Origin: a virus
DNA: 20,170 nucleotides
Virus record (IMG/VR): IMGVR_UViG_3300046804_005139
Span: 1-20,170 of that record
Direction: 5' to 3' (one strand)
Made by a program: the position numbers and the translations under genes. The notes beneath the pieces are model-generated. The model had not been told where the DNA came from, did not search any database, and saw only the letters and a program-made list of their open reading frames with translations. Positions 2,531 through 15,917 of the stretch are shown piece after piece (within the stretch, counting starts at the first letter, position 1; every line of letters begins with the position of its first letter).

Positions 2531-2905
2531 GACGAGCGTTTCCCCTCCTCACAACGAGGCGTGCTTTCTGTTGCCCGGTACGACGCCAATACCGCGTACG
2601 GTATTCAATAGGAACCCGTACAAGTGCTGCTAGGCAGCCATTGCGTAACTGTAGTTGTCAGTTACTGGTGTCTCTGTTTAACGTCAGCGACTTGACGACT
2701 GTCTCCATGTCGTTCTGCCGATACCCCGTCGAAGCCTTGTCGCCCCCATCAGAAACAATCATCTGGCGAAACCCATGATAATAAAGATTCACCGCTGCGA
2801 GAATACCCCAACAAATTCCGAATGTAATCATGATTGCTTCTGGTGGAGGCGGCGGGAGTCGAACCCGCGTCCGCGATATCCGTTCAACACTTCATCGACA
2901 ATATC
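2531..2905 (-). ncRNA. ssrA: Circularly permuted (two-piece) tmRNA
   Basis: tmRNA frees stalled ribosomes and tags the nascent peptide for proteolysis. The 3' part comes first on the minus strand (2905-2841). It has the T arm (GGACGCGGGTTCGACTCCCG) and the acceptor 3' strand CGCCTCC, then A and an encoded CCA. A 93-nt spacer (2840-2748) follows. Next is the 5' end GGGGGCGACAAGGCTTCGAC (2747 onward); GGGGGCG pairs with CGCCTCC over 7 bp including one G-U. The spacer ends continue this helix: CAGAAGCAATCAT (2842-2830) pairs with ATGATTGTTTCTG (2762-2750). The P2 strands GTATC and GATAT also pair. The tag frame ends at TAG 2630-2632 and reads TDNYSYAMAA if the resume codon is ACT at 2660-2662, as CAGTA before it suggests. 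The stop lies in a GCTGC/GCAGC hairpin. Outer ends are approximate. Confidence 0.9.
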
Positions 2906-2907
2906 AA

Positions 2908-2914
2908 TATTTAG
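2908..2914 (-). promoter_or_regulatory. Late-type box CTAAATA before the tmRNA
   Basis: Minus-strand CTAAATA overlaps the TAA stop of the gene at 2911-3105 and lies directly before the first tmRNA piece. Transcription starting 5-7 nt downstream would begin near 2902, a sensible 5' end for the acceptor piece. One of the recurring TAAATA series. Confidence 0.4.
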
Positions 2915-3105
2915 GCAAAACCTTCGTCTCTTGGGTCATCATGCGCAATCAGATGATCCCCATTTGATACATGTAAGACCGACGCAATTTTTGCCACCGC
3001 ATCACGAATCGCTTGGTCGTTCATCGCAATATTAGCATAGTAAATCTTGGTAATCATGTCATCGCACCACTGGTAGTACTCTTCGACATTCTTAAATTTT
3101 GGCAT
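2911..3105 (-). CDS. Hypothetical small protein, 64 residues
   Basis: No family recognised. The sequence (starting MPKFKNVEEYYQWCDDMITK) is predicted to be mostly helical, soluble and mildly acidic. It starts a few bases after the nuclease gene stop; the end of that gene (TTAGGATAA) supplies the ribosome binding site, so translation is probably coupled. Codon use resembles the neighbours. The permuted tmRNA begins right after its stop. Confidence 0.7.
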   Translation of the reverse strand: MPKFKNVEEYYQWCDDMITKIYYANIAMNDQAIRDAVAKIASVLHVSNGDHLIAHDDPRDEGFA

Positions 3106-7253: not shown

Positions 7254-7260
7254 TATTTAG
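7254..7260 (-). promoter_or_regulatory. CTAAATA box at the end of the QueC-like gene
   Basis: Minus-strand CTAAATAGGAG, in which TAA is the stop codon of the QueC-like gene. It would serve the 29-residue frame or hsp20. Confidence 0.35.
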
Positions 7261-7829
7261 GGCGCATACAGACAACTGCCAGGCAACATTTTCAATTCTA
7301 AACATTTGCGACAGGTACCACAGTTGATATCTTTATCTGGGTGCGTATTTTTTATGCAGGTTCGCACCAACGGTCGAATGTGATTTGGTATCGTACTCCA
7401 AATTTCTGCCTTAGTCATTTCAACCATCGGAAAGACAATTGGCACGCCGGGATGCAATATATTCCACGCAGTTTCCAATTGGGTATACTTTTTATCCGCA
7501 GTATACATACCCGAATATTCCGACGCATTTACTCCATACCACACTTCACAGATTGATGTATCTTTTGTAACACACAACGACACCACCGGCAGAATCATCC
7601 ATAGTTGATAATGCCATATTTTTTTGGGTCGCGGTATCGGAGTAAAAATTTGACACATGCGAACATCGACATTGAGAGCGGCGGCAATATTTTTAACCGC
7701 GCCCGGATGAAACGACATGTCGGCTCTCGGTGAGGTGTCTTCTACGGTAACGACAACATCGTCATCGTTGCGACGTAATAATAGTGCGGTGCTCTCCACC
7801 CCACCCGAGAAGAGAATCAGTCGTTTCAT
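7257..7829 (-). CDS. QueC-like 7-deazaguanine (preQ0) synthase
   Basis: 190 residues. The PP-loop ATPase motif is FSGGVESTALL (7-17), a Glu variant of the usual SGGxDS. PMVEMTKAEIW corresponds to the QueC segment before the zinc site. C158, C170, C173 and C176 give the QueC zinc pattern (C-x11-C-x2-C-x2-C). QueC makes 7-cyano-7-deazaguanine for queuosine tRNA or, in several phages, for deazaguanine DNA modification that blocks host restriction. QueD, QueE, FolE and a DNA transglycosylase are not in this window, so the use is open. The protein is somewhat shorter than bacterial QueC (about 220-230). It overlaps the upstream gene by ATGA, so the two are co-translated from a leaderless promoter at 8361. 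Confidence 0.75.
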   Translation of the reverse strand: MKRLILFSGGVESTALLLRRNDDDVVVTVEDTSPRADMSFHPGAVKNIAAALNVDVRMCQIFTPIPRPKKIWHYQLWMILPVVSLCVTKDTSICEVWYGVNASEYSGMYTADKKYTQLETAWNILHPGVPIVFPMVEMTKAEIWSTIPNHIRPLVRTCIKNTHPDKDINCGTCRKCLELKMLPGSCLYAP

Positions 7830-14340: not shown

Positions 14341-14375
14341 TTGCGTATAGAGTAAGAATAATTGCACATAGACGA

Positions 14376-14457
14376 GAATAGTTGCGCCTACCGAAATAGA
14401 CGCAACTATTCTTGGGGATAGTTGCGCCTACCGAAATAGACGCAACTATTCTTGGGG
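14376..14457 (-). repeat. Tandem 40-bp repeat, each unit a hairpin
   Basis: Two identical 40-bp units (14378-14417 and 14418-14457) stand head to tail. Each forms a stem of about 9-11 bp (ATAGTTGCG with CGCAACTAT) with a 14-nt loop, CCTACCGAAATAGA. They start 7 nt after the stop of the cytochrome/monooxygenase gene on the minus strand. No run of T follows, so they may be a weak double terminator or an mRNA 3'-end stabiliser. Any unit can also pair with its neighbour. Confidence 0.85.
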
Positions 14458-14464
14458 AGGAGGG

Positions 14465-15829
14465 TTACTGCTGCTGTGTTGCGGTCGGGGTATGTTTGAC
14501 GACCCACTCCGTATATTCTGCGTCGGTGAGATAGACGACGTTCATCCACGCATGGGCCATCTCGTCAACCGTACGGTCCCCGTAGCCGACCCACTGCTCA
14601 GGGTCAGGGTTCGCCTTGTTGGCTTTGGTGTTGTCATACCACGCGGTCACATGAATGATGGTGCCCTTGGGAAACGCCGGTGCCGCATCATCCGCATAGA
14701 TGTAGTTCGTCATCCAGTTGAAGTTGAAATCCTTCACATATGAAATAATCTGCGTCCGACCATTAGGTAGAATCGCTTCGACCTGCATCGCTTTGCCGCG
14801 CAGATGGAAGTGCGGCTGGAAGTTCGTGATGATGGTGTTCTCACGCAGGACGGTGAACCCTTCCGTATGTGAGATAGAGTTCGGGGGAATGTCGAGTCCT
14901 TCGGTGCCGTTCTTCAATCCCGTAAATGCGACAAGATAGGAACGCTTCGTGGGTTCCTGTCCCTTCGGATAGAACCAAAGTCCAAGTTCGCTACCGCCCG
15001 TGATTTCTTCACCAACAGCATGAATATGTTGATCCCATGAAATTTTTTCGCCGGGGAGTACAAGTTTGCCTGTTCCTTCAAGGTACCGGTCATACCCCTT
15101 CCCGATAGCCCACTCCATGAGTTGTGGGCGTCGATTCGCTAATTCGGCGGCCAGTTGTGACGCATTCCCTGATACAGATGCCGCAGGACGACCACCACCG
15201 ATACCAGTATTCACTGCCGACACATTTTCGGGATTGAGAATCTGATACGCAATTGAATGATGAAGAATTTTTCGTGTCTGGATATTGGTGGGACGAATCT
15301 CGACCATGCGCACCCATCGCGGTTCGGTCACAGGGATATCACTGACGGGACGCCACCATTCATCTTGATGCACTGCCGGCATAGTTTGTTCCGGTGCTTT
15401 GACAATGAGATCCGGCGGGCCGTATCCGTCGCGTTCTCCTTGCCAAAACAACGACGTGGCAATTGGCTTTGGAACAAACTTAGTCTTGTCGCCTTGGAGC
15501 GCACCACCATCCACCCATCGCGCAATCAAATCAATCTGCTCGTCGGTCAGGGACATGTCATTCTTGAATTTAGTCACGCCCACACTACGTTCAATATGCC
15601 ACGGGGGCATTTGTCGTGTTTGAACGCGCTGCTTAATTGACCGCGCCCACGGACGCGCCTCCGCATAGGTCGCAAGAGAAAACGGACCGATACTACCCGG
15701 CTCATGACAATTTTGACACTTCGCCTGAAAGATGGGGGCGACATCATTAAACGTGGGTGTCTGTGCCGCCGCCGAAGTAACACTGAATACACAAATGCCG
15801 ATGGCCATGAAGAAATGAGACATCTTCAT
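14465..15829 (-). CDS. Secreted cytochrome c-copper monooxygenase (PHM-like) fusion
   Basis: 454 residues. A signal peptide (1-22, ending SAAA) precedes a cytochrome c domain with the haem motif C38-Q-N-C41-H42 and a candidate axial Met74 in RQMPPW. From about 130 a domain resembles copper type II, ascorbate-dependent monooxygenases (PHM/DBM). H190-H191 (KILHHSIAY) and H268/H270 (QHIHAVGEE) would hold one copper; H340 and H342 (FQPHFHLRGKAM) with M424 (VDEMAHAWM) the other. All ligand groups come in family order. PHM-type enzymes hydroxylate C-H bonds with O2; the haem domain could deliver electrons. Similar fusions are frequent in Acidobacteriota and related phyla. Substrate unknown; action in the periplasm expected. 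GGAGG lies 6 nt before the ATG. In a phage this is a probable auxiliary metabolic gene. Confidence 0.85.
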   Translation of the reverse strand: MKMSHFFMAIGICVFSVTSAAAQTPTFNDVAPIFQAKCQNCHEPGSIGPFSLATYAEARPWARSIKQRVQTRQMPPWHIERSVGVTKFKNDMSLTDEQIDLIARWVDGGALQGDKTKFVPKPIATSLFWQGERDGYGPPDLIVKAPEQTMPAVHQDEWWRPVSDIPVTEPRWVRMVEIRPTNIQTRKILHHSIAYQILNPENVSAVNTGIGGGRPAASVSGNASQLAAELANRRPQLMEWAIGKGYDRYLEGTGKLVLPGEKISWDQHIHAVGEEITGGSELGLWFYPKGQEPTKRSYLVAFTGLKNGTEGLDIPPNSISHTEGFTVLRENTIITNFQPHFHLRGKAMQVEAILPNGRTQIISYVKDFNFNWMTNYIYADDAAPAFPKGTIIHVTAWYDNTKANKANPDPEQWVGYGDRTVDEMAHAWMNVVYLTDAEYTEWVVKHTPTATQQQ

Positions 15830-15910
15830 ATCTACCTCCAGTAAACTAGATTGTTCCGAATGGATTGTAAAGATACGGCGTCAGGATGACGGCGAGTTTC
15901 GTCGCACCTA

Positions 15911-15917
15911 TATTTAG
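15911..15917 (-). promoter_or_regulatory. CTAAATA box before the monooxygenase gene
   Basis: Minus-strand CCTAAATATAGG, itself an imperfect palindrome, lies about 80 nt upstream of the monooxygenase start and just after the lipoprotein stop. Possible late promoter. Confidence 0.4.

Follow-up and report, generated by a model that had tools for sequence, protein, structure and literature searches.

A T4-like phage carries an auxiliary gene best labelled a cytochrome c-PHM/DBM-like monooxygenase, with its closest cellular relatives in Acidobacteriota

Does a bacteriophage carry a secreted haem-copper monooxygenase of host origin, and what could such an enzyme do during infection? The question is raised by one gene in a 20,170-base virus record (IMGVR_UViG_3300046804_005139), the whole of which was analysed and is referred to below as the window. 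The original prediction had described an open reading frame encoding a secreted protein with a CQNCH haem motif and the ordered motifs HH, HIH, HFH and DEM of PHM/DBM copper monooxygenases. The reading frame and its motifs were found exactly as claimed, and an N-terminus resembling a signal peptide, judged by eye, is consistent with secretion. The gene has the following features.

14465-15829, minus strand: haem-copper gene with an ATG start, encoding a 454-aa protein assigned from residues, fold and profile as a secreted cytochrome c - PHM/DBM-like dicopper protein
15764-15829, minus strand: signal-peptide-like N-terminus, residues 1-22, ending SAAA/Q; modelled with low confidence
15704-15718, minus strand: CQNCH haem c attachment motif, residues 38-42, with C38, C41 and H42 in 88/88 alignment rows
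15608-15610, minus strand: Met74 (MPPW), probable axial haem ligand, in 88/88 alignment rows
15257-15262, minus strand: His190-His191, counterparts of PHM H107/H108 (CuH)
15026-15028, minus strand: His268, counterpart of PHM H172 (CuH)
14804-14812, minus strand: His340-x-His342, counterparts of PHM H242/H244 (CuM)
14558-14560, minus strand: Met424 (DEM), counterpart of PHM M314 (CuM)

In the window protein, the motifs occupy residues 190-191 (HH), 268-270 (HIH), 340-342 (HFH) and 422-424 (DEM). The counterparts of the PHM copper ligands were assigned by profile alignment. Cys38, Cys41, His42, Met74, His190, His191, His268, His340, His342 and Met424 were all invariant across 24 diverse relatives, which argues that the ligand series is more than a chance arrangement. 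In an alignment of 88 sequences (L053, which is frameshifted, and L058, the main copy of L060 and L063, which are cut or frame-broken, were excluded), the only exceptions at the copper-type positions were one phage row truncated by its contig and two rows of a degenerate paralogue. Position 270 additionally differed in two divergent rows, so His270 falls outside the universal ligand set and the third CuH ligand would be His268. According to PMC6123673, CuH of PHM requires H107, H108 and H172.

Searches of curated libraries gave a mixed answer. The CxxCH motif and the distal methionine (C38, C41, H42, M74) are those of a class I c-type cytochrome, and the Pfam cytochrome c families came just below their gathering scores (PF13442, 26.6 bits for a cut-off of 27; PF00034, 20.5 bits for a cut-off of 21.3). 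PF01082 and PF03712 had no match to the window protein at E ≤ 1, and scans of it against NCBIfam and PHROG returned no family over cut-off. Among 52 relatives, 11 matched PF03712 weakly (best E 0.0063), and some divergent bacterial paralogues did exceed the cut-off. Because the Pfam gathering score was not reached, the window protein is filed as PHM/DBM-like, outside the curated family. A profile built from the 24 diverse relatives did reach the known enzymes in the PDB, namely human DBH (E 1.1e-7) and rat PHM (E 1.6e-4). In the alignment with PHM, the HH pair, the single H, the HxH and the Met of DEM all fell on copper ligands; the alignment with DBH matched HH, H and HxH and stopped before the Met. 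The kinship proposed at the outset was therefore borne out by the family profile, and direct assignment to the two Pfam families failed.

The predicted structure pointed in the same direction. An AlphaFold model based on the 88 related sequences, on which it leans, had a pLDDT of 87.8 and a pTM of 0.86; it replaced a single-sequence model with a pLDDT of 31.4. The N-terminal cytochrome domain is helical in the model (pLDDT mostly >90). The model recovers the two-domain fold of PHM/DBM, and the sequence alignments give HH and H for CuH and HxH and M for CuM in the expected order. The best comparisons were with DBH 4zel (Z 21.1, rmsd 2.8, 263 residues aligned; Foldseek E 1.0e-10) and PHM 6ala (Z 19.4), the next group being PNGase at Z ~8. 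The PHM match of lowest rmsd was the H108A-citrate conformer, in which the copper ligands are merged into one site (PMC6123673); the copper geometry of the model therefore calls for caution. The assignment of two putative copper sites is supported by the structural and profile alignments together with the invariance of the ligands.

DBH carries a DOMON domain, and PHM contains disulfides. The phage protein has the same six copper ligands, in the same order, as PHM and DBM/DBH, and it shares the DEM motif with PHM, but the identity in the structural alignment is only ~14-16%. Where DBH has DOMON, the phage protein has its N-terminal cytochrome c domain, and the three cysteines of the window protein (C13, C38 and C41) leave no room for the PHM disulfides. 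Unlike the animal enzymes, it is encoded by a phage and its electron source would be haem instead of ascorbate.

The closest cellular relatives, with up to 79% identity and the same domain order and ligands, belong to Acidobacteriota, bacteria of soil and water. A pattern search of genome contigs gave 273 matches, 210 of which encode relatives, and 79 loci were kept. Acidobacteriota titles stand on 72 of these loci; two oddly titled MAGs (Bifidobacterium breve and Acidimicrobiia) belong to one taxonomic order with the Acidobacteria genome G001. The family is expanded, since nine of the ten bacterial genomes searched had 15-53 matches each, although a single gene can account for several of them as fragments. 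Of 99 genomes sampled across the phylum, 15 had a match at E ≤ 1e-30. When the window DNA was compared with 162 genomes of one order, 141 gave matches, all of them, among the matches listed, in the haem-copper gene; no host link was drawn from them.

In 71 of the 79 bacterial loci a partner gene lies directly downstream on the same strand, whereas the phage gene stands alone; four of the eight loci without it have <200 bases downstream. The partner protein has ~300 residues, looks secreted and bears a GCCWTT motif near its C-terminus (e.g. L004:5574-6464). Three members had no Pfam family at E ≤ 0.01, and the members tested had no NCBIfam family. Neither a PDB relative at E ≤ 0.1 nor a relative in the viral contigs searched was found, and there was no profile kinship to the haem-copper enzyme. 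The four phage contigs that carry the haem-copper gene gave no match to the partner at E ≤ 10, and the phage enzyme may for this reason be incomplete alone. Clustering of neighbouring genes was cluttered by shadow ORFs of the GC-rich DNA, and only Pfam-checked rows were used.

Several bacterial paralogues depart from the common form. Short paralogues occur beside full copies (L052:1676-2803, L047:1886-2965 and L040:6166-8208); those of L052 and L047 keep CxxCH and have lost the copper ligands, which makes them a natural negative control. Paralogues in L120, L126, L116, L117, L123 and L125 have TPR-like C-terminal extensions, and NCBIfam TPR models match L120, the sole extension paralogue scanned.

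The fold and ligands could also belong to a periplasmic protein for electron transfer, copper handling or O2 reduction that performs no hydroxylation. No activity is known for any family member found, and among the members scanned the sole NCBIfam or PHROG models to exceed their cut-offs were TPR models on a C-terminal extension; the short paralogues with a haem motif and no copper ligands also fit such a role. CuM is the substrate site in PHM, and the invariance of all six copper ligands in the 24 diverse members, the CuM Met included, argues for an enzyme that works on a substrate. In the flanking sequence retrieved, 9 of the 79 loci have PQQ-dehydrogenase-like genes, which is weakly consistent with alcohol products. 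We therefore consider a non-hydroxylating role unlikely and retain the monooxygenase reading.

The genes around the haem-copper gene are those of a phage, as the original prediction had held. The window is a T4-like virus of bacteria and encodes a gp32-like single-strand binding protein (phrog_224), a late promoter transcriptional regulator and an exonuclease of T4 type, in addition to Hsp20, a Dps/ferritin-like protein, and nucleotide-sugar and methyltransferase genes. It also contains a QueC-like gene at 7257-7829 (minus strand, 190 aa), which scores far below the QueC cut-off and may be another auxiliary or modification gene.

A search of other viral contigs, which had been proposed as a check, recovered three more phage copies, so that four incomplete phage contigs, including the window, have the gene. 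L002 (80% identical) and L003 (84%) both carry it soon after genes for a DNA polymerase, a UvsX-like protein and a DnaB-like helicase, the copy in L003 ending at the contig edge. In L083, a 49% identical homologue adjoins SbcD/SbcC-like (gp47/gp46) genes, and gp32-like and helicase genes are present on the same contig. Searching 50,697 phage and 72,556 plasmid records with the window protein by tblastn gave no match, a divergent paralogue found none among the phage records, and Foldseek against viral proteins returned low TM-scores only. An open-access literature search, which is not proof of absence, found neither a PHM/DBM-like gene described from a phage nor an account of the haem-copper family in Acidobacteriota.

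The suspicion that host DNA had been misassembled into the contig draws on the bacterial identity of the closest cellular genes. The same gene nevertheless lies between phage genes in two sister contigs and occurs in a fourth phage. The nearest bacterial relative has a GC3 of 0.932, and the phage copies are all lower (window 0.563, L002 0.704, L003 0.653, L083 0.344); high GC3 is the mark of the Acidobacteriota copies. Purifying selection is indicated by dN/dS values of 0.057 (window-L002) and 0.095 (L002-L003), to be read with dS near or at saturation in most pairs and with synonymous sites saturated for window-L003. The sister contigs, the composition and the selection leave practically no room for a misassembly, and we give it almost no weight. 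A host-derived gene of metabolic type thus lies within a phage genome and is kept under selection in several phages, which agrees with its proposed status as an auxiliary metabolic gene.

Phylogenetic analysis placed the phage copies among Acidobacteriota genes. A first tree was distorted by three divergent paralogues on very long branches and was rebuilt without them; two degenerate paralogues were excluded from both trees. In the first tree the genes of the window, L002 and L003 formed one clade (100/99) adjoining eight bacterial rows. In the test made with the rebuilt tree, forcing all four phage genes into a single clade was rejected (p-AU 1.8e-5), which points to at least two entries of the gene into phages, subject to the caution that L083 sits on a long branch. 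This branch measures 1.29 in the rebuilt tree and joins another long branch, so the exact sister of L083 is unsure.

The gene may be as described and the present host may still be another bacterium, for example an alphaproteobacterium, the gene having arrived by a different route. The window contains a permuted tmRNA (2539-2933, minus strand; 94.5 bits to RF04321; tag DNYSYAMAA), a form that exceeded the cut-off in one of ten bacterial genomes, that of Reyranella. A permuted tmRNA is also found in L107 of the L083 phage (7142-7336, minus strand; 81.9 bits), where ARAGORN did not call it; overall GC is 49.1% in the window and 41.5% in L107. In addition, a 78% homologue lies on a 3.6-kb contig of that same Reyranella MAG (L005, JAGNNA010000460.1), and the partner gene there shares 91% identity with its counterpart in an acidobacterium. 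This MAG has 2 family matches compared with 15-53 in the other genomes, so the contig may be a contaminant; a contaminant or a transferred piece is the probable explanation. Both acquisitions moreover lie among Acidobacteriota genes, and most bacterial loci bear Acidobacteriota titles. A host outside this phylum is accordingly less likely, though it deserves to be kept in mind, and an acidobacterial host is tentatively preferred.

Signals around the gene suggest that it is expressed by the phage.

15835-15839, minus strand: GGAGG ribosome binding site, 5 nt before the ATG
15911-15917, minus strand: CTAAATA, a motif resembling a T4-type late promoter and located 88 nt before the ATG, identified from the sequence and from shuffles
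14375-14457, strand-neutral: two perfect tandem 40-nt copies predicted by folding to form one long hairpin

The strong ribosome binding site that had been predicted is present. Of the hairpin repeats said to flank the gene, those on the 3' side were confirmed as the two tandem 40-nt copies, which span 14378-14457; the 5' side has the CTAAATA motif instead. The hairpin (-47.1 kcal/mol, z -9.6) lies between the haem-copper and epimerase genes with no T run after it, and is possibly a terminator or a 3' stabiliser. CTAAATA occurs seven times in the window against 1.65 expected, a count reached in 0 of 100 shuffles. A CTAAATA-like site lies 81 nt upstream of the gene in L106, and TATAAATA lies 34 nt upstream of the L083 gene. 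For the remaining minus-strand copies in the window the distance to the following start varies between 13 and 958 nt, so not all of them are promoter-like. In the T4-like phage Aeh1, CTAAATA forms the core of the putative late promoters (PMC1524935).

These signals also bear on whether the gene is a chance passenger with no role in infection. Its different genomic site in the window and in L002/L003, and the absence of the partner gene from the phage contigs, are what a passenger might show. Against this stand phage copies that have diverged to 80-84% identity under purifying selection, the phage-like composition of the gene, its own ribosome site with a late-promoter-like motif, and the two separate acquisitions. 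A passenger is for these reasons distinctly improbable, and a gene with a function in infection is preferred.

Taken together, these features suggest that the gene came from Acidobacteriota and serves a T4-like phage as an auxiliary metabolic gene for a secreted, self-contained haem-dicopper monooxygenase, a reading to which we assign a probability of about 0.78. Cytochrome c-PHM/DBM-like monooxygenase is the best label for the product. On this simplest reading, its hydroxylase activity, substrate, host and expression are what we infer. The protein would be exported by the Sec route and would receive haem c at CQNCH from the host. Its cytochrome domain, most likely replacing the ascorbate of PHM/DBM, could pass electrons from periplasmic carriers of the host to CuH (H190, H191, H268). 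The second copper (H340, H342, M424) would then bind O2 and, going by the chemistry of the family, hydroxylate some small periplasmic molecule at a C-H bond. Expression probably falls late in infection, and the partner protein would have to be supplied by the host. We lean, with modest confidence, towards the fuller account that T4-like phages of Acidobacteriota, independently and at least twice, took up from their hosts one member of a large family of self-contained haem-dicopper hydroxylases without its operon partner, and use it late for a periplasmic C-H oxidation that aids phage production.

PmoC is an integral membrane subunit of unrelated fold. Its gene, in phages, nevertheless offers the closest parallel: according to PMC7674155, large freshwater phages related to cyanophages carry this particulate methane monooxygenase subunit gene, often with Hsp20, while the genes that accompany it in bacteria are missing, and they express it together with structural genes. 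In both cases a host-derived copper monooxygenase gene is carried without the bacterial partners; unlike pmoC, the window gene specifies a whole two-copper domain together with a cytochrome of its own, all in one chain.

Animal enzymes of the PHM/DBM type make noradrenaline and peptide hormones. If the present reading is true, the phage gene would be the first auxiliary metabolic gene of this type and would add dicopper C-H hydroxylation, new among host genes borrowed by viruses, to the chemistries carried by phages. The finding also draws attention to the abundant phylum Acidobacteriota, in which this enzyme family is expanded yet uncharacterised. With the electron donor built into the monooxygenase, the family would represent the bacterial counterpart of ascorbate use, and should the copper sites indeed be supplied by the haem domain, it would offer a natural test of PHM/DBM-type enzymes working without ascorbate. 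Retention by phages implies that one of the many paralogues matters in infection, which narrows the search for function.
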